Shown here in pieces: positions 4,354 to 16,275 of a DNA stretch of 64,000 nucleotides (within the stretch, counting starts at the first letter, position 1; each line of letters starts with the position of its first letter). A program made the position numbers and the translations under genes. Source of the stretch: Phytohabitans maris (GTDB lineage Bacteria > Actinomycetota > Actinomycetes > Mycobacteriales > Micromonosporaceae). The DNA lies in contig NZ_JAVHUY010000001.1 of NCBI RefSeq assembly GCF_031085175.1, forward strand, positions 310,001 to 374,000, written 5' to 3'. The notes under the pieces were generated by a model that saw nothing but the letters and a program-made list of their open reading frames with translations, made no database searches and was not told the origin of the DNA.

Positions 4354-4758
4354 ATGACCACCACCCTCTACATGCTGGAGACTCACCCGCGGCGGGCGGA
4401 CGTCGACCGCACCCGCCTCGCCGCGGTGATCGACTCGCTGAACGCCTGCGCGGAGACCTGTACCGCATGCGCCGACGCGTGCCTCAGCGAAGACGCGGTC
4501 GCGGACCTGACACGCTGCATCGCTCTCAACCTCATCTGCGCCGACATCTGCCTCGCCACGGCCCGCATGCTCTCCCGGCACGCCGGCGAGGACGGCGCGC
4601 TCAGTCGCTCGATGCTGGAAGCCTGCGCGACCGCCTGCCGCACCTGCGCCGACGAGTGCGCGAAGCACGCCGAACGGCAGCAGCACTGCCGGGTCTGCGC
4701 CGAGGCGTGCCGTTCCTGCGAGCGGGTCTGCCTGGACCTGGTGGTGGCACTGCGGTGA
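4354..4758 (+). CDS. four-helix-bundle copper-binding protein (Csp-like)
   Basis: A 134-residue protein with 16 cysteines in C-x3-C / C-x2-C patterns spread over four predicted helices (NACAETCTACADAC, CIALNLICADICL, ACATACRTCADEC, CRVCAEACRSCERVC). This is the layout of cytosolic copper storage proteins (DUF326/Csp3), which hold many Cu(I) ions inside a helical bundle. No signal peptide is visible, so the cytosolic type is favoured over the exported Csp1 type. The start is ATG 4354. No copper exporter or copper regulator is adjacent. Confidence 0.85.
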   Translation: MTTTLYMLETHPRRADVDRTRLAAVIDSLNACAETCTACADACLSEDAVADLTRCIALNLICADICLATARMLSRHAGEDGALSRSMLEACATACRTCADECAKHAERQQHCRVCAEACRSCERVCLDLVVALR

Positions 4759-4807
4759 ACGCCGGCACGGCCGTTTGCCGGCGGCGCGGACGGGTAGCCC
4801 TCCCGGT

Positions 4808-5056
4808 ATGAGCGACGAGACCGACGGCGTCTGGCGGGACGAGGAGAAGCTGCCGCTGTCCGAGCTGAGCCGCGCGATGGCGATGTCGCCGGGCGACGGG
4901 CAGGTAGACGACGAGTCCGGCAACGACGCGGGGATGGTGCAAGCCGAGGAGGAGGTCCAGCGGGAGGTCGACGGCGCCGAGGGTGACCCCGACCCGCACA
5001 GCACCGCCGGCCGCGCCCTACGCCCCGACTTCACCGGCCGCAGCGGCCCGCACTGA
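4808..5056 (+). CDS. small acidic hypothetical protein
   Basis: An 82-residue, strongly acidic, low-complexity protein (MSDETDGVWRDEEKL at the start, many Glu and Asp, PHSTAGRALRPDFTGR near the end). It has no membrane segment and no cysteine. The ATG at 4808 lies 49 bases after the copper-protein gene, with CCCTCCCGGT before it, a poor ribosome site. The composition fits small actinobacterial proteins of unknown role. It is not recognised as any named family; expression from the upstream promoter is possible. Confidence 0.55.
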   Translation: MSDETDGVWRDEEKLPLSELSRAMAMSPGDGQVDDESGNDAGMVQAEEEVQREVDGAEGDPDPHSTAGRALRPDFTGRSGPH

Positions 5057-5492
5057 GCGGCGGGTAGACGGCGAGCGGCATCGGTGGGGTCATGAACGAC
5101 CGTCCGGGACGAGTAGCGCGGAATAACTACGTTCCGAAGCGGGCGCGGCCTTGGCGCTGGCGGTCGAGCCAGCGCTGGGGCGCCGGACGCACGGCGCCAC
5201 TGCTGCGTGCGAAAGGTCGATGCCCGGGCAACAGTGGGATCTTGATGTGCGAATCTCCGCGGCGTGACTGCGGGTCGGTGTCGCGGTAGCCGCCGGGCAC
5301 GGCGCGCCCCGGGGCGCGCAGGCTGCGGACACCGGCGTTGCGGTGGTGTCCGTGCACGCGGACGCCGCACACCCGCCGCCCGTTATTTATGTATCCACTG
5401 GTAACAGCTCGCGGGCCGCATCGCTCGGTTGATCAAATCTGTCTGCGACACCTCGCCTTGGCGTCCGATAACGCACGCGTTATCATCTAACG
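5057..5492. other. 436-base intergenic stretch, no convincing gene
   Basis: Both strands hold only short arginine-rich frames typical of GC-rich shadow reading. There are GC-rich palindromic patches (for example around 5300-5325), then an AT-richer stretch from about 5380 (TTATTTATGTATCC) that probably carries the promoter of the toxin/antitoxin remnant. The palindrome at 5467-5484 is annotated separately. Confidence 0.5.
5467..5484. promoter_or_regulatory. palindromic operator of toxin-antitoxin remnant
   Basis: A perfect inverted repeat, GATAACG-CACG-CGTTATC, ends 8 bases before the GTG of the toxin remnant. Its right half overlaps a TATCAT sequence that could serve as a -10 element, which would make the transcript nearly leaderless. 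XRE antitoxins of this kind normally bind such palindromes to repress their own operon, so this is the likely binding site of the protein at 5654-5971. Confidence 0.6.
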
Positions 5493-5654
5493 GTGGACTG
5501 GTCCGTCGTTCGACACCCGCGGGTCGATGATGACCTGGTCAACCTGCCACCCGACGAGGTCGCGGCGATCATCAACGCGATGAAGAAGCTCGAAGCCATC
5601 GGGCCGACACTGGGCTACCCGCACTCCAGCCAGGTGAAGGCCGCCGACGAGTGA
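5493..5654 (+). pseudogene. truncated RelE/HigB-type toxin
   Basis: A 53-codon frame starting GTG GAC TGG, reading VDWSVVRHPRVDDDLVNLP and later KKLEAIGPTLGYPHSSQVK before a TGA. The sequence and the L-x-x-x-GPTLG-x-P pattern match the first half of HigB/RelE-like toxins (about 100-120 residues). The second half, which carries the basic residues that act on mRNA, is missing: after K-A-A-D-E the frame stops and runs straight into the antitoxin. The stop overlaps the antitoxin ATG (TGATG), so it can still couple translation. It may be dead as a toxin, or a short peptide retained only for coupling. Confidence 0.6.
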
Positions 5655-5971
5655 TGAAGCTATCCGACCTGAAGACCGTTGATCAGCTCATCGAGGAACG
5701 GCGGGAGAAGGACGCTGAGTTCCGCGAGATCTGGGACTCCACCGCGTTCGCCCGCCAGGTCGCGATTATCGTTGTTCGCTACCGCACCGAGCGCGGCCTG
5801 TCACAGCGCGAGCTGGCACGGCTGACCGGCCTTCAGCAGCCGGCGATCGCCCGTTTGGAGAACGGCGAGACCGAGCCACGACTCCAGACGTTGGCGAAGC
5901 TGACAGCCGCAACGGGGCTGTCGTTCCATCTCGATGTGGTGCGCGGCGGCGTGGAGCTTGTGCCGGCATGA
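5654..5971 (+). CDS. XRE-family antitoxin/transcription regulator
   Basis: A 105-residue protein with a classical helix-turn-helix at about residues 54-85 (LSQRELARLTGLQQPAIARLENGETEPRLQTLAKL) and a C-terminal strand SFHLDVV. This is the HigA-like architecture, with an N-terminal helical arm (TVDQLIEERREKDAEFREIWD) that normally wraps the toxin. ATG 5654 is chosen because it overlaps the toxin stop; an in-frame GTG lies one codon earlier. With the toxin truncated, this looks like an orphaned antitoxin that may still act on the palindrome at 5467-5484. Confidence 0.8.
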   Translation: MKLSDLKTVDQLIEERREKDAEFREIWDSTAFARQVAIIVVRYRTERGLSQRELARLTGLQQPAIARLENGETEPRLQTLAKLTAATGLSFHLDVVRGGVELVPA

Positions 5972-6285
5972 CGAGCCCGACAACATCAGGGCTGGTCTAG
6001 GTCAATCACCTCAAGCGAGACCACCGATAGCCCTCGAGGGCTGCCGACGACATCGTCATCGACAGCCCTGAACGGCCAGACCGGCCAATCGCCGCGTCAC
6101 CCCAGAGGCGGGGCTGATGCTCGCGCGGCGGCGGCTGACGGTTAGCTAGGTTGCGGCCGGAGCCCAACGACGGCTCCCGAAGTGCCCGCTACCGCCCACT
6201 TGAAGCTTGGAGCGAACCGCTCCCAAAAGCCGTATGACCAGCACCTTACCGCCTTCGCGGTCGGCGTCTGGGTAGGCATTTCGGG
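5972..6285. other. 314-base intergenic stretch, nothing recognised
   Basis: Between the antitoxin and the tRNA there is no frame with coding character on either strand. The stretch contains several stops in all frames and no strong palindrome. It may be the scar of a longer toxin-antitoxin or mobile insertion beside the tRNA, but no attachment-site repeat of the tRNA 3' end was seen. Confidence 0.4.
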
Positions 6286-10522: not shown

Positions 10523-13171
10523 TTATCGAGGGCATTCGTTGAGGAGTTCGGTGATTGCGTCAGCGGCGTGTGCAACGCCAATTCGTCGATACAGGTTCTG
10601 GGCCTGCCGGAGTAGCTCGATGCCCTTTTCTGAATTGTTCAGGTGGAGGTGACACCGGCCGGCACCATTCAATGCGTTCGCCTCGGCGTTCGGATTCTTG
10701 GCCCGGGTCGCGAGATCGAGTGCCTGCCCGTAGCGGCCGAGAGCCTCCTCCGGCCGGCCGAGGGTGAGAAGGAGATCGCCGATGTTGGAGTGCGCCTCTG
10801 ACTGTCCAAGTTCGTCGGACGCCTGCTGGAAGAGGGCCAGCGCCTGTTCGTGTGTCTCGGCCGCCGCTCCATGGTCCGAAGCCAGTCGTTCAAGAACTCC
10901 AAGCTGGTTGAGCACGTCGGCCTGACCGCTGCGATAACCGATCTTGCGGTAGAGCGCGAGCGCGTCCGTCAGCAACCGCCGTGCCACCTTGTGCCGGCCC
11001 GAGCGGATATGCGTGGCGGCCAGGTAGTTCAGCGTGTGAGCCTCGCCCTCGCCGTCGCCAAGATCACGCTGGATGGCGAGGGCGAGATCGAGTGCCTTGC
11101 GGCTCGCGTCGTAGTCGCCCGTATGGCTGTGAGCAGCACCAAGGAACGCGAGCGCCTTGGCCTCCCCGAGCCGATCGCCCAACTCCCGGTAGAGGGCGAG
11201 CGCGCGTCGCTGCGCGTCGATGGCGGGCGGGTAGCCCACCGTCAGTTGCTGGAGGCCGCCGACCTGGTGAAGGGCTTCAGCGGCACCTTGGTGGTCGCTC
11301 AGCTCCTCGAAGGCACACAGCGCCTGTTCCGACGCATCGAGAGCCTCCTCGTACGCGCCCACGGCCCACAGGGCGGTGCCCATCTCGTGCAGCGCCCGGG
11401 CCTGGCCGTGTCGTACTCCCAGCTTCCGATAGGTCGCCAGGGCGGCGCGGAGCTCTGCCGCCGCCTCCGCGTGGCTTCCCAGTCGCCACCGAACTCCGCC
11501 CAGCTCGGTCTGGGCGTCGGCGACACCAAGTTCGTCGCCGATCTCGTCGTAGAGCTCGAACGCGCGCTGGAGGGCGCTCGCGGCGGCCGGGTACTGGCCG
11601 GCGTGCCGCCGCAGGAGGCCGAGCTCGCGTAGCGCGTCCGCCATGGACCGCTTGTCGCCGCCGGCCTCAGCGGTGCCCGCCGCCCTCTCGTGCAATGCGA
11701 TCGCCAGGTCCCACGGACCGGCCAGGCGCAGGTACGGCGCCATCGCGGCGGCGAGGGCCGGCAGCGCGCTCGCTCCGCGCCGGCGCGCGGGCTGGGTACC
11801 GGCGCAGGCGAAGAGGTTCGCCTGCTCCGCCTTCATCCAGCTCATGGCCTGGCGTCGGGTGCGGATCGGCGGTAGGCCCTCCTCTCCGTCTCCCGGGCTG
11901 GAGAAGGGCCGGACGCTGGGGCGGGACAGATGGCGCCCGGCGGATTCGGCCGCACGCCGGTAGTAGTCGAGGAGGCGCACCACAGCGTTTTCCCGCTCGC
12001 GGGGAGAGTCGCCTTCGGCGCGCATGATCGAGTACTCGCGGATCAGGTCGTGCATCCGGTAGCGGCCGAGTCTGGGCTGGTCGAGCAGGTGCTGGTGGTA
12101 CAGCGTCTCCAGAAACCTCCCGGCCTGCCGGGGGCTGCTGCCGTCGAGGGCCGCCGCGGCGTACCGGTCGACGTCCGGGCCGGGGTGGAGGCCGAGGCGC
12201 CGGAAGAAGCGCCGGTGGGCGGTCGACAGCCGGCGGTACGACAGGCCGAACGCGGCTTCCACCGTCACGTCCTCGGCCCGCATGCGGGAGAGGGCATGCT
12301 TGGCCTCGGTCAGTTCGTCCACGAGATGGTCGACGGGCCACCGGGGCTCCAGCCGCAGGCGGGTGGCGAGCAGGCAGATCGCGAGGGGCAGGTAGCCGCA
12401 GACCCGCATGAGGTCGTCGACGGCACCCGCCTCCACGGGCTCCAGCTGACGGCCGGCCACCGCGGCGAACAGCGCGGTCGCGTCTTCGGGCGGCAGCGTT
12501 TCCAGGGTCAGGTTGACGGCCGCCTGGGTCGCGACCAGACCGGTCAGTCGCGACCGGCTCGTGATCAGGACGAGGCAGTGGGCCGTGCCCGGTAGGAGGG
12601 GCTGCACCTGTTTTCGGCTCTCCGCGTTGTCCAGGATGACAAGCGCCCGCCGGTGCGCCATTCGCCTGCGCCAGAGGACCGCCCGGTCGTCGAGCTCGCG
12701 CGGGATCTCCGCGGTGGGCACCCCGTCCGCCGAGATCAGTTGAAATAGGGCGTCGGCCGGGTCGGCTGGACGTTGGCCGGGGGAATGCGCGTGAAGATCG
12801 ATATGGAACTGGCCGTCCGGGAAATGGTCTTGCAGCATATGTCCGGCGTGTATGGCGAATGCGGTCTTGCCGACGCCCGGCATTCCGTCGATCGCGTAGA
12901 GCGGCACGATCGTTTGGGTCTCCGCCCGTTGGGTGACGGTGTCGAGCAACGCCTTCAGTTCGCGATCGCGACCGGTGAACGCCGCGGTGTCCCGGGGCAG
13001 GATGTTGCTCGGGGTGGCGACGGCGGGAGGCGGTTGGTGGTGGTAGAAGATCTGATTGCCCGCCGACTGAAAGATCGATTCGCCGTCTCGCGCGTGCAAT
13101 TGCCTCTCGCCCTGAGGCGCGGTGCCGGTCGGCTTGTCGTCAGCCGTTGGTGTCCACCCCACGCCAACCAC
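10523..13171 (-). CDS. NB-ARC / TPR STAND ATPase (NLR-like, AfsR without its DNA-binding part)
   Basis: An 882-residue protein. A short unstructured N-terminus (1-60) holds the motif SIFQSAGNQIFYHHQPPP at 32-49. The NB-ARC domain has Walker A GMPGVGKT at 96-103, Walker B LVILDN at 177-182, a sensor-like LVLITSRSRL near 205, and the GxP motif CGYLPLAICLL near 275. From about 480 to the end there are 8-10 tetratricopeptide repeats (for example ALALYRELGDRLGEAKALAFLG). STAND ATPases of this design oligomerise when a ligand engages the repeats. The N-terminal winged-helix/BTAD part found in AfsR is absent; that pair of domains is encoded by the divergent gene at 14533. Confidence 0.9.
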   Translation of the reverse strand: MVGVGWTPTADDKPTGTAPQGERQLHARDGESIFQSAGNQIFYHHQPPPAVATPSNILPRDTAAFTGRDRELKALLDTVTQRAETQTIVPLYAIDGMPGVGKTAFAIHAGHMLQDHFPDGQFHIDLHAHSPGQRPADPADALFQLISADGVPTAEIPRELDDRAVLWRRRMAHRRALVILDNAESRKQVQPLLPGTAHCLVLITSRSRLTGLVATQAAVNLTLETLPPEDATALFAAVAGRQLEPVEAGAVDDLMRVCGYLPLAICLLATRLRLEPRWPVDHLVDELTEAKHALSRMRAEDVTVEAAFGLSYRRLSTAHRRFFRRLGLHPGPDVDRYAAAALDGSSPRQAGRFLETLYHQHLLDQPRLGRYRMHDLIREYSIMRAEGDSPRERENAVVRLLDYYRRAAESAGRHLSRPSVRPFSSPGDGEEGLPPIRTRRQAMSWMKAEQANLFACAGTQPARRRGASALPALAAAMAPYLRLAGPWDLAIALHERAAGTAEAGGDKRSMADALRELGLLRRHAGQYPAAASALQRAFELYDEIGDELGVADAQTELGGVRWRLGSHAEAAAELRAALATYRKLGVRHGQARALHEMGTALWAVGAYEEALDASEQALCAFEELSDHQGAAEALHQVGGLQQLTVGYPPAIDAQRRALALYRELGDRLGEAKALAFLGAAHSHTGDYDASRKALDLALAIQRDLGDGEGEAHTLNYLAATHIRSGRHKVARRLLTDALALYRKIGYRSGQADVLNQLGVLERLASDHGAAAETHEQALALFQQASDELGQSEAHSNIGDLLLTLGRPEEALGRYGQALDLATRAKNPNAEANALNGAGRCHLHLNNSEKGIELLRQAQNLYRRIGVAHAADAITELLNECPR

Positions 13172-13182
13172 CGATCCCTACT

Positions 13183-13206
13183 TACCGTGTTGTATTAACT
13201 ACGGTA
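13183..13206. promoter_or_regulatory. inverted repeat upstream of the NLR-like gene
   Basis: TACCGT and ACGGTA form a 6-bp inverted repeat with a 12-base AT-rich spacer, 12 bases upstream of the minus-strand start at 13171. The spacer contains TTAACTAC, and the same octamer occurs again at 18173-18180, before the DUF1800 gene. It may be an operator or part of a promoter, but arms this short can arise by chance. Confidence 0.25.
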
Positions 13207-13295
13207 CGAGGTGGGCGCGAGATTTGTTCAAGTCCGGCGAGGGATCCGGCGGCATTGGGGCAATCAGTCCGTTCACTCACGTCTGGTGATTGGCG

Positions 13296-14411
13296 TCAGC
13301 CGATTTTGGCGAACGACTCAGCGGAGACCGCCACGGCTGGCTCGACCGGCGTCGGCGCGCAGTCGAGGGCTGGTTCGGGTAGCCACAGCATGCGGTAGAT
13401 CTGCTCGCGCAGCGACCGGGTGGCCTGCCCCGGCCGCGACGTGACCGCGGCGGCGACCGCCGCGTATCGCACCGGGTCGAAGGTCTCGACGGCCTCCCGC
13501 AGGTACGCGGCGAGCGGCCGGTCCGGGCGCAGCGCCGGCGCGGCGCGGGCCAACGCCGTGGCGGGCGAGCCAGCCGCGCTTCCCGGCGGCAACCGGACCG
13601 CCCGGAGCACCGGTACGCCGGCGGCGGCCGCGTAGACGGTCGCCGCGCCGTGGTCGCCGATCAGGACGTCGGCGGCGCCGACGAGCCCGCGCCAGGTCGG
13701 TGGATCGACGATCCGCAGGCCGGCCCGGCGCCGCCGCTCCAGCCAGGCGAGGACCGGGCGGCTGAGATGCGCGTACCAGGCGCCGGGGTGCAGCCCGATC
13801 GCCACCGCGAACTCCTCCTCCGGCAGTGCGCCCAGGACGTCGAGCAGCGCGGCCGGCGCGCGAGCCAGCAGGGAGTCGGGGCCGGGGGCGGACGTGACCG
13901 CGACCAGCGTGCGGCCGTCCGCGACGCCCAGAGCCCGCCGGTACGCCGCGCGGTGGAGCCGGCTCCGGACCAGGCGGTCCAGGCAGAGGTCGCCGGTTAC
14001 GGCGGTGACCGGCGGCACCTGAGGGCACGGCTCGGCCGGCGACGGCAGGAGGTCCTGGTGTGACACCGCCAGCGCGTCAGGCGGCCGGGCGTCGTACCGG
14101 GCGGACCAGGCTGCGTCGAGGTCGTCCACGATCCCGGGGACGATCGCCAGCCAGGTACCCCGGAGGCGTCGCAGGGCGGCCGGCTCGGCGGCGATGACCA
14201 GGTCGACGTCCGCCCGCATCGCCTCCTCCCAGGGCAGGTACGCCGCGCCGGCGGCGGTCACGTCGGTCGCCCGGCGGCCCGGTGCGGTCGTGCAGACCAC
14301 CTGGATCCGGTGGTCTGGCACGAGGAGGTCGACGGCGTCGAGTACGTGCCCGGCGGTCGCCAGGTGGACGACCGCCAGGACGGTGCGTTGGGTGGCGCGG
14401 GTAAATGGCAT
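13296..14411 (-). CDS. GT-B-like transferase (CDP-glycerol transferase-like)
   Basis: A 371-residue protein starting MPFTRATQRTVLAVVHLATAGHVLDAVDLL. Features of a GT-B or UDP-GlcNAc epimerase-like fold are visible: two half-domains, VQVVCTTAPG near residue 40, the acceptor-side YLPWEEAMRADVDLVIAA, and a C-terminal nucleotide-binding signature VLIGDHGAATVYAAAAGVPVLR near residue 270. Relatives in streptomycetes are often annotated as CDP-glycerol glycerophosphotransferase-like or, misleadingly, as translation initiation factor. No membrane helix is seen. It lies between the NLR-like gene and the divergent BTAD regulator, so it may be controlled by them or simply be a bystander. Donor and acceptor are unknown. 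Confidence 0.6.
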   Translation of the reverse strand: MPFTRATQRTVLAVVHLATAGHVLDAVDLLVPDHRIQVVCTTAPGRRATDVTAAGAAYLPWEEAMRADVDLVIAAEPAALRRLRGTWLAIVPGIVDDLDAAWSARYDARPPDALAVSHQDLLPSPAEPCPQVPPVTAVTGDLCLDRLVRSRLHRAAYRRALGVADGRTLVAVTSAPGPDSLLARAPAALLDVLGALPEEEFAVAIGLHPGAWYAHLSRPVLAWLERRRRAGLRIVDPPTWRGLVGAADVLIGDHGAATVYAAAAGVPVLRAVRLPPGSAAGSPATALARAAPALRPDRPLAAYLREAVETFDPVRYAAVAAAVTSRPGQATRSLREQIYRMLWLPEPALDCAPTPVEPAVAVSAESFAKIG

Positions 14412-14532
14412 GCCCCGACGGTGTGGTCGCCGGGCGGACGAAAACCGGGCGGGCGGCCGGACACGAATCCGGACGCGATCATCGAATGCGCTGGTGAGCA
14501 CGGCGGAAAAATTGTCGTGCCACACTTCGACG

Positions 14533-15417
14533 ATGGACGTCCGACTGCTCGGCGATGTCGAGATCGAGGCGGCTGGAGTCACGTACACACTGGGCCGCAC
14601 GGCGGAGCGTTGCGTCCTCGCCACACTGGCTTTCAACCCGGGCCGCGTGGTGCCGCTGGGCACATTCGTCGCGCATATCTGGGGTGAGCACCCGCCGCCG
14701 AAGGCCGAAGAGACGGTCGCCACCTACGTTCGCGCGGTACGCCGGATGATCGAGCAGGCGGGTGGCGGCCGGGAATGGCTCGTCAATCGGCGGTCGGACG
14801 GCTACCGGCTCGATATCGACCCGGTTCTGGTCGACCATCGGCGGTTCACCGATCTCGCCGGCACCGCCCGCGTGCTCGCTCGGCAGCGGGACGACGCGCG
14901 GGCGGTCGAGACGTTCGAGCGCGCGCTCCGGCTGTGGCGGGGCGAGGCACTGGCCAATGTCGCCGGTCAATGGGCGAAGACCTGCCGGCACGGGCTGCGG
15001 CTGGACCGCCTGAGGGTCACTTACGAACTGCTGGAGCTGCTGCTGCGCGCCAGCGCGTACGGCGATGTGGCGACCCGGGCCGCCGATCTCGTGCGGGAGG
15101 AGCCGACCGAGCGGGCCATCGCCCTCGCGTTGCGTGGGTTGGCCGGCAGCGGCCAGCGGGCGCTGATTCCGTCGTTTCTCGCCCGGGCGGCGGAACAGAT
15201 GCGGGAGGTGAACGGGAGCCGGCCGAGCGCCGACCTGGTCGCGCTGGCGCGAAGGCTGGCGGGGGAGCCGGAGGCCGCGGTGGCGGCACCGCCTGAACCG
15301 GCGGCGGGCACCGTCGTGATGAACGTCCGGAACGCCACCAACGTCTACCAGGCCTCCGGCGACCAGTACTTCTCGGTTATCCCGCCACGGGGTGCGCCAG
15401 GCGCCGGACGGCGGTGA
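14533..15417 (+). CDS. BTAD-domain (SARP-type) transcription regulator with C-terminal Q/G motif
   Basis: A 294-residue protein. Residues 1-90 are an OmpR-like winged helix (MDVRLLGDVEIEAAG, RTAERCVLATLAFNPGRVVPL, KAEETVATYVRAVRRMIEQ). Residues ~97-240 are the bacterial transcriptional activation domain (VDHRRFTDLAGTARVLA, FERALRLWRGEALANV). This is the small SARP design used by AfsR/DnrI-type activators. The tail is unusual: after a Pro/Ala linker it ends in NVYQASGDQYFSVIPP (270-285), matching the N-terminal motif of the NB-ARC protein at 10523. It is divergent from the GT-like gene across a 121-base region. The last 41 bases overlap a TetR remnant on the other strand. Confidence 0.88.
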   Translation: MDVRLLGDVEIEAAGVTYTLGRTAERCVLATLAFNPGRVVPLGTFVAHIWGEHPPPKAEETVATYVRAVRRMIEQAGGGREWLVNRRSDGYRLDIDPVLVDHRRFTDLAGTARVLARQRDDARAVETFERALRLWRGEALANVAGQWAKTCRHGLRLDRLRVTYELLELLLRASAYGDVATRAADLVREEPTERAIALALRGLAGSGQRALIPSFLARAAEQMREVNGSRPSADLVALARRLAGEPEAAVAAPPEPAAGTVVMNVRNATNVYQASGDQYFSVIPPRGAPGAGRR

Positions 15418-15580
15418 CGATCGCCGCGCGGCGGGCCTTCAGGGCCGTGCGGCCGGTCGGGTCGGCGGCGCCCTCCGGGGCGCCCTCGGTCCATGCGGCC
15501 GCGAGGGTCAGCACCAGCCCCGCGGGCAGGACCGCGTCGACGATGCCGGCGCGCTGGGCCGCCGCGAGCGCGTCCAGCTT
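15377..15580 (-). pseudogene. C-terminal remnant of a TetR-family regulator
   Basis: On the minus strand, 67 codons read KLDALAAAQRAGIVDAVLPA ... ALKARRAAIVTAVRRLAHPVAG and stop. This is the typical last quarter of a TetR regulator's ligand-binding domain. There is no start and no N-terminal helix-turn-helix; upstream sequence is directly the broken SDR gene. TetR genes are commonly divergent from an SDR or oxidoreductase gene, so both fragments probably come from one decayed pair whose shared middle has been deleted. Confidence 0.65.
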
Positions 15581-15587
15581 TACTTAG

Positions 15588-16275
15588 GGAGGGAAAGACC
15601 GCCGTCGTGACCGGTGCCAACAGCGGCATCGGGTTCGAGACCGCGAAAGGGTTGGCCGCCGCCGGGATGCGGGTCGTCGTGGCCGGACGCGACGAGGAGC
15701 GGGCGGAGCGGGCCGCGGCGGGGATCCGGGCCGCCCGTCCCGCCGGCGAGGCCCGGGCCGCCCGCCTCGACCTGGCCAGCCTCGACTCGATCGCCGCGTT
15801 CGCCGGCCGGCTGGTCGACTCGGGCGAGCCGATCGACGTACCGGTCGACAACGCCGGCGTGATGGCCGTGCCGCAACGACTCACCACAGTGGACGGTTTC
15901 GAGCTGACGGTCGGCACCAACCACCTCGGCCACTTCGCGCTCACCGGGCCGCCTGCTGCCCGCCCTGCTGAGCGTGGCCGTGCACCCGGGCACCAGCATG
16001 ACCAACCTCCAGCAGCACACCCCGCGGGTCGTACGGGCGCTGGACCGGCTCGGGCTGGAGCGCTTCCTCGGCCACCCGGCCGACCAGGCGGCGCGCCCCT
16101 CGCTGGCGGCGCCTTCTACGCGCCAACTGGACGGCGCGAGCTGCGCGGCGCTCCGGGCCCGGTGAAGACGCCGCCCGCGGCGCTCGACCCGGAAACGGCA
16201 CGTTCACTGTGGACGCGATCCGAGCAGCTCACCGCCGTCCGGTACCAGATCCCGGCCGCGCGGGCGGCGATGTAG
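15588..16275 (+). pseudogene. decayed short-chain dehydrogenase (SDR)
   Basis: The frame begins inside the Rossmann motif (KTAVVTGANSGIGFETAKGLA; TGxxxGIG intact) with no start codon in place. It continues through LDLASLDSIAAFAGRL, DNAGVMAVPQ and GTNHLGHFALTG. The frame then shifts, and sequence resumes in another frame as LLPALLSVAVHPGTSMTNLQQHTP and later FYAPTGRRELRGAP. The region that should hold the catalytic Ser and YxxxK is missing between these parts. At least one frameshift and a deletion of roughly 100 codons are therefore present. It should not make an active enzyme. Confidence 0.75.

Follow-up and report, generated by a model that had tools for sequence, protein, structure and literature searches.

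We analyzed a 64,000-nucleotide stretch of the Phytohabitans maris genome (the window) in which a stand-alone SARP-type transcription activator with a BTAD domain and an NLR-like protein with an NB-ARC domain and a TPR array share a short motif, placed at the C-terminus of the activator and at the N-terminus of the NLR. The pairing of the motif in these two proteins is established by comparison among genomes, and a role of the shared motif in coupling them is likely. The reading that we prefer, and consider reasonably probable from the sequences, is a two-chain, motif-coupled switch from NLR to transcription. A stronger version, which we put slightly below an even chance, is a prion-like bacterial transcription switch, in which the NLR would template the activator via a shared amyloid motif and the outcome would be a stable, possibly heritable change of expression, not death; if this is true, such a sensor and activator would be joined in evolution either by amyloid coupling or by covalent fusion, the two being interchangeable. 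Bacterial NLR amyloid signaling is known chiefly from paired motifs with presumed killer partners, and its outcome is still to be explored, according to excerpts of a 2021 review (PMC7889193; all papers given here by PMC number are cited from excerpts). With an activator as executor and a recognizable repeat array, the output would be readable and non-lethal, and templating could be tested by reporter. There is also a natural experiment, in that a peptide bond links related BTAD and NB-ARC parts in some genomes and a short motif apparently links them in others. No title among the literature matches listed dealt with an amyloid-coupled NLR that has a BTAD or SARP partner; Dyrka et al. 2020 was not covered, and priority is not established.

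The two proteins and their motifs lie as follows (window coordinates):

10523-13171 (minus strand): NLR-like protein (STAND), 882 residues, GTG start; N-terminal motif tail, NB-ARC at residues 72-293, TPR array.

13034-13102 (minus strand): NLR-side motif QLHARDGESIFQSAGNQIFYHHQ, residues 24-46, with the core SIFQSAGNQIF at 32-42.

14533-15417 (plus strand): stand-alone SARP-type BTAD activator, 294 residues; Trans_reg_C winged helix at 23-93, BTAD at 100-242, predicted disordered tail.

15316-15384 (plus strand): BTAD-side motif VMNVRNATNVYQASGDQYFSVIP, residues 262-284, with the core NVYQASGDQYF at 270-280.

An earlier, sequence-only reading of the window had noticed the motif at these places and had taken the NLR's partner for a transcription activator, which Pfam bears out (Trans_reg_C, 1.2e-10; BTAD, 7.5e-16). 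Against known structures the activator matches AfsR (8hvr, 2.9e-14) and EmbR (2fez, 2.6e-10). In its AlphaFold2 model the predicted local distance difference test (pLDDT) is ~95 through residue 240 and 38-70 beyond, and the C-terminal tail is predicted to be disordered. The NLR matches NB-ARC (4.5e-8) and TPR_12 (2e-45) in Pfam, and AfsR (368 bits) and HaaT (682 bits) in NCBIfam, each under its cut-off. The two genes are not the neighbors that had been supposed: a gene for a 371-residue protein lies between them and they point away from each other. They are separate genes in opposite orientation, so that the SARP and NOD/TPR parts are on two polypeptides.

A search within the genus gave BTAD orthologs with 80% (G004), 65% (G002) and 51% (G001) identity, each with the motif at its C-terminus and with an orthologous NLR bearing the N-terminal motif in the same genome. 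A BTAD profile run against 354 genomes of the family, with up to 6 candidates scored per genome, found 11 intact orthologs among the matches listed (E ≤ 2.8e-113; G000, G001, G002, G004, G321, G355, G147, G148, G149 and, twice, G150), followed by a frameshifted one in G011 (9.6e-75) and, next, a match at 7.2e-56. In all 11 listed intact orthologs the tail closes with the motif, drifted in several, and the genome of each has a motif-bearing NLR, within ~5 kb in 10 of the 11 pairs. The co-occurrence that the sequence-only reading had predicted for a profile hidden Markov model (HMM) search thus holds, with 11 intact pairs among the matches listed, each in one genome; we met no intact orthologous pair lacking a motif. 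The motif precedes NB-ARC in 11 of 12 sampled members of the NLR clade. The exception is G011: its NLR belongs to the clade (support 100/98) but has no motif in frame, and its BTAD is frameshifted, with a remnant of the motif in another frame; this double loss fits joint decay of both partners, sequencing error being possible. A 930-residue frame in G147 that looked like a fused BTAD proved to be nothing more than open frame ahead of an ordinary BTAD. The BTAD frame of P. flavus (L039:10252-7925 (-)) runs through the motif into a downstream GCS2 (glutamate-cysteine ligase-like) gene, by fusion or for want of a stop.

Taken alone, the likeness of the two window motifs is modestly unusual (Smith-Waterman score 39, equalled by 102 of 20,000 shuffles), which leaves some room for a chance likeness of two low-complexity tails. 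The orthologous pairs of G004 and G002 are equalled by 0 and 39 of 20,000 shuffles, respectively, and it is conservation among relatives, not the window pair by itself, that makes the motif more than chance. Among these relatives the match extends further N-terminally (xARxxxx[VI][YF]Q); the trailing PP, previously counted as part of it, is not conserved and lies outside the motif. A 23-position HMM (A1) built from 7 training segments gave 8 strong matches in 61 genomes, confined to four of them (E 5e-13 to 4e-10): the 7 training segments, including both window motifs (E 1e-11 each), and one held-out segment, the G001 NLR. All remaining matches had E ≥ 0.0177. A second HMM (A2, 8 rows) found exactly two matches per genome, both training rows, in 4 of 6 genus genomes at E ≤ 0.1, and none at that threshold in the other two, G003 and G005. 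Across the 354 family genomes A2 matched 13 at E ≤ 0.01, with held-out NLR matches in G321, G355, G150 (two), G148 and G149 and a held-out BTAD match in G355; at this threshold it missed the G147 NLR motif and, of the 11 BTAD tails, recovered 5, of which four are training rows. In the other four A2-positive genomes (G096, G350, G348, G065) the matches do not come from NLR-BTAD pairs.

The two sides were also compared by means of an HMM made from the 11 NLR-side motifs only, run against the last 45 residues of the 11 BTADs and of 2,113 other frames, real and spurious (1,521 of the 2,124 tails were reported by hmmsearch). All 11 BTAD tails fell within the top 16 of 2,124 (ranks 1-6, 9, 11, 12, 13 and 16), that of the window 4th; the weakest were G150b (5.9 bits), G147 (8.6) and G148 (8.7). 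The five controls in the top 16 comprised two small-protein partners discussed below (L117, L113), one membrane-type G001 protein and two chance-like tails. Given this ranking and the held-out HMM matches, chance likeness has been refuted by conservation and retains a negligible probability.

The same motif occurs in a second layout. A motif search of 394 genomes of the class matched 7 at E ≤ 0.01, one being the window's own. In G537 and G671 the gene for a small protein of ~140-155 residues, which has the motif C-terminally, overlaps an NLR or STAND gene whose product has it N-terminally, and G535 and G735 have the same overlapping layout; G720 has a small protein with the motif, and the G603 match looks like chance. 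A contig scan with the NLR profile recovered 40 loci. At 8 of them the motif is present, at times in diverged form, in the matched NLR, and its cognate closes a small protein whose gene lies upstream and overlaps that of the NLR (Streptomyces sp. ISL-10, S. xantholiticus, Nonomuraea solani, N. guangzhouensis, [Actinomadura] parvosata, two Jidongwangia records and a second P. flavus locus). A comparable motif pair, in a small and a larger protein, lies on the other strand in S. graminilatus (L157). The small protein has a hydrophobic stretch at its start and no significant Pfam match, and by the published description of Bell (PMC7889193) it fits a Bell-like protein. Some pairs have private variants on both sides, such as GNNAYxAxxDQxNI (L123, L137), RQ[FM]IAGRDQ (L125) and MSGRDQ (L117). 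With this layout found in Streptomyces and Nonomuraea, the likeness in arrangement to bacterial amyloid signaling that the sequence-only reading had drawn is supported.

Looser relatives of the motif were seen elsewhere. In L116:5599-9815 (+) it couples a small helical protein to a 1,299-residue P-loop protein that seems unlike the NB-ARC/TPR type, and the motif may have moved between receptor types. VYQAAGDQ-like stretches occur in proteins that have membrane-like hydrophobic segments (L099:9589-10500 (+), L121:6524-5832 (-), L156:14187-13264 (-)). A metagenome-assembled genome of Caldilineales (Chloroflexota) has two adjoining frames, L158:293-3862 (+) and 4612-6093 (+), with internal motif-like stretches (NLYQAGRDQYLF, NVYQAAGDQYF), so the motif may reach beyond Actinomycetota. 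Six stretches in viral contigs fitted a motif pattern and none was confirmed; four motif strings had no match in the literature searched.

A motif of this kind could also serve plain docking, through a soluble beta-hairpin or zipper or through a common third protein, giving an ordinary heteromer with no templating; we regard this as unlikely. The motif is short (core ~11 residues) and lies inside a predicted disordered tail, and its profile did not match the RHIM/BASS3-like VQAG-type core of eight motifs from a second NLR (hhalign probability 3.4), all of which would suit docking. Near-identical copies on both partners, and the recurrence of the motif in the NLR/small-protein layout, suit templating better than lock-and-key recognition. 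Nor did the four motif-positive Phytohabitans genomes yield a third protein with the motif at E ≤ 0.1; the nearest thing is a weak look-alike at E 0.9, the C-terminus (SIYQAAGSIYFAQ) of a G001 protein with hydrophobic stretches encoded ~5 kb from the BTAD (L041:4671-3595 (-)). The second NLR (NLR2) is present in 8 loci (G002, G001, G321, G355, G147, G148, G149, G150b) and absent from the window and G004. Its N-terminus reads VQAGxxxGxVH in G002, G321 and G355 (L040:4483-7005 (+), L095:9042-6877 (-), L096:12350-10176 (-)); the BASS3 label is our own, taken from published descriptions as excerpted.

The two chains had further been likened to a split AfsR, and part of this stands, namely the domain order and the partnership. 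In three Pseudonocardiaceae proteins with TPRs (L141, L135 and L153, from Amycolatopsis, Actinosynnema and Actinokineospora) a BTAD subtype close to that of the window shares one polypeptide with an NB-ARC chain, as it does in G026, whose contig ends in the NB-ARC region. In a BTAD tree of 51 rows the 11 split BTADs lie on one side of a branch (93/93); together with the four fused proteins they are set apart from other SARPs (100/99), the node that leaves out G026 being weak (84/44). Because this subtype is tied to an NB-ARC partner both split and fused, motif and fusion look like alternative links, and the motif probably substitutes for a covalent link of the AfsR kind, the executor being a transcription activator. 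Less certain is the NLR as a broken-off piece of a fused protein. An NB-ARC tree of 57 rows unites the 11 BTAD-paired NLRs in one clade (99/98), which joins two Streptomyces NLRs of the motif and small-protein kind and one other NLR (93/90), not the fused proteins, and the latter require 5 changes on this tree. Given this placement, a swap of effectors is as good a fit as fission, and the NLR tree leans toward a split form that arose when a BTAD replaced a small-protein effector.

Could the motifs be a scar of fission, the duplicated linker of a once-fused AfsR-like protein with no current function? The AfsR domain order and the existence of fused relatives speak for it; the linkers of L135, L141 and L153 contain no motif, the NLR groups with small-protein NLRs, and the motif outlasts its flanks, so that we consider a scar very improbable. 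On the NLR side (alignment A4, 10 rows, G147 left out) mean pairwise identity is 0.62 in the core at residues 32-42, 0.39 at residues 24-31, 0.29 and 0.27 in the flanks and 0.55 at the start of NB-ARC; the invariant columns before residue 58 among 10 orthologs, A27, Q35, G38 and Q40, all fall inside the motif. On the BTAD side (alignment A5, 9 rows, G004 and G147 left out) the values are 0.43-0.46 for the motif, 0.24 for the linker, 0.15 after the motif and 0.45-0.53 for the domains. The fused Pseudonocardiaceae proteins lie near a second NLR of the NLR2 kind, common in split loci too, and no gene like that between the window NLR and BTAD was found near the three.

That intervening gene and the promoter that it shares with the activator have the following features:

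13296-14411 (minus strand): GT-B-like-fold protein, 371 residues, between the NLR and BTAD genes and divergent from BTAD; likely target gene.

14434-14478 (no strand assigned): direct-repeat array with a 12-bp period, CCGGACRCGA type, in the divergent promoter.

14418-14423 (minus strand): putative -10-like hexamer for the GT-like gene, with 10 nt between it and the last repeat.

The GT-like protein had no Pfam, NCBIfam or PHROG match, and a PDB sequence search with its profile was empty. Its AlphaFold2 model is poor in the N-terminal half (mean pLDDT 61.8; Foldseek TM-scores 0.24-0.38 by query length), for which reason we claim only a GT-B-like fold. The gene is divergent from BTAD in 9 of 10 loci that have both. 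Clear repeat copies lie at 14457-14466 and 14469-14478, the remaining units being degenerate; at least two GGAC copies spaced 12 bp apart occur in 9 of 9 divergent loci, and the double unit is matched exactly nowhere else in its own genome. A -10-like hexamer stands at the same spacing in 10 of 10 loci, by a degenerate pattern written after looking. In G321 the BTAD lies elsewhere and the repeats remain at the GT-like gene, which makes this gene the likely target of the activator. A GT-B-fold homolog (33%) lies near the S. graminilatus small-protein pair (L157:13656-12583 (-)), and the GT-like gene may belong to a wider system. A regulon sought through repeat-array matches elsewhere in six genus genomes was given up, the search in G000 being too unspecific. 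In the rest of the locus, there is a conserved stretch upstream of the NLR gene, and PADLOC matched the NLR (TPR model and PDC-S39, 4e-4, both within the TPR region) and no other locus protein. PHROG gave two families, both of unknown function. An SDR-like frame 3' of BTAD (window 15493-16275), whose Pfam match covers residues 35-151 of 260, may be frameshifted.

In the switch that we favor, the NB-ARC/TPR protein would sense a cue via its TPRs and oligomerize with nucleotide, whereupon the clustered N-terminal motifs would seed an amyloid-like (beta-arch) assembly, and the cognate motif of the predicted disordered BTAD tail would be recruited to it and templated by it. BTAD molecules gathered in this way would bind the 12-bp repeat array cooperatively, 5' of the GT-B-fold gene, and activate that gene and possibly their own. 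The motif would stand in for the peptide bond by which AfsR-like proteins connect such domains, and BTAD for the Bell-like small helical protein that partners related NLRs. Oligomerization, the amyloid nature of the assembly, activation as its direction and the GT-like gene as its target are what we infer. The direction could be the reverse: a resting or aggregated NLR might hold BTAD via the motif until a cue frees it, as in AfsR, whose SARP domain is kept inhibited by the NOD and TPR domains, an effect relieved by ATP (PMC10936776). The published hypothesis for NLR and Bell pairs is activation of a cell-death executor (PMC7889193), which counts against restraint. The sequences favor neither sign, and overall we judge restraint improbable, on a par with docking.

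Cognate pairing was examined with 21 motif pairs (11 BTAD and 10 small-protein, those of G535 and G735 left out), each set re-paired 100,000 times with kinship uncontrolled. In favor of the switch, the cognate score of the 21 exceeded all free re-pairings, and 2 re-pairings reached it when partners were exchanged within type; for the small-protein pairs 20 did so (n=10), or 205 after removal of near-duplicates (n=8). Several results weigh against a motif-coupled switch. The signal is weak for the BTAD pairs considered separately (n=11), whose score was reached by 3,039 re-pairings, 1,829 on the core, and by 6,340 and 4,847 without two near-duplicates (n=9); ranked among 11, the own partner is 5th in the window, 9th in G148 and 10th in G150b. 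The BTAD motif has drifted in G147, G148 and G150b (VYFAGRDQ, VHFAGRDQ), and in the draft G001 the NLR and BTAD are on different contigs. At the promoter, the 12-bp period differs from the 11 or 22 bp of SARP repeats (PMC10936776), and bare CGGAC pairs 12 bp apart are not rare in the window (3 observed, 1.2 expected). Searching the six genus genomes for the repeat pattern with two mismatches was unspecific in G000, where 10 matches stood against 7 for the reversed control.

The NLR-effector pairs of bacterial amyloid signaling sequences (BASS), BASS1-10, were reportedly set out by Dyrka et al. 2020. As in these pairs (PMC7889193, PMC8086366, PMC12261475, PMC9815663), the motif here precedes the NB-ARC of the NLR and its cognate ends a partner encoded nearby, a likeness drawn from published descriptions; the hosts are filamentous actinobacteria, and the same motif couples related NLRs to a small helical protein. 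Unlike in those pairs, the partner is a Trans_reg_C and BTAD DNA-binding activator in place of Bell (less often CHAT or TIR), and the partner genes do not overlap. AfsR, in which the NOD/TPR part controls the SARP domain, and the large SARPs (PMC10936776) share with the locus the winged helix-BTAD, NB-ARC (NOD) and TPR domains and direct repeats at the likely target promoter, whereas here the repeats, a candidate operator, have a 12-bp period in place of 11 or 22 bp, two chains with a shared motif replace one polypeptide and the likely target is the neighboring GT-B-fold gene. HaaT (NF041717, 682 bits) and FxsT (NF040586, 107 bits) are related NB-ARC-TPR proteins of systems for ribosomally synthesized and post-translationally modified peptides (RiPPs), but the window NLR stays under their curated cut-offs of 1125 and 300. 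HaaT is a cyclophane RiPP TPR protein, and the 682-bit score hints at kinship of RiPP-linked TPR proteins and NLRs; none of the papers listed for HaaT or FxsT was relevant by title. EmbR (2fez), which the activator matches over residues 2-261, is likewise a BTAD regulator with a C-terminal input region. In EmbR that region is a folded FHA domain, in place of which the window activator has a predicted disordered tail with the motif.

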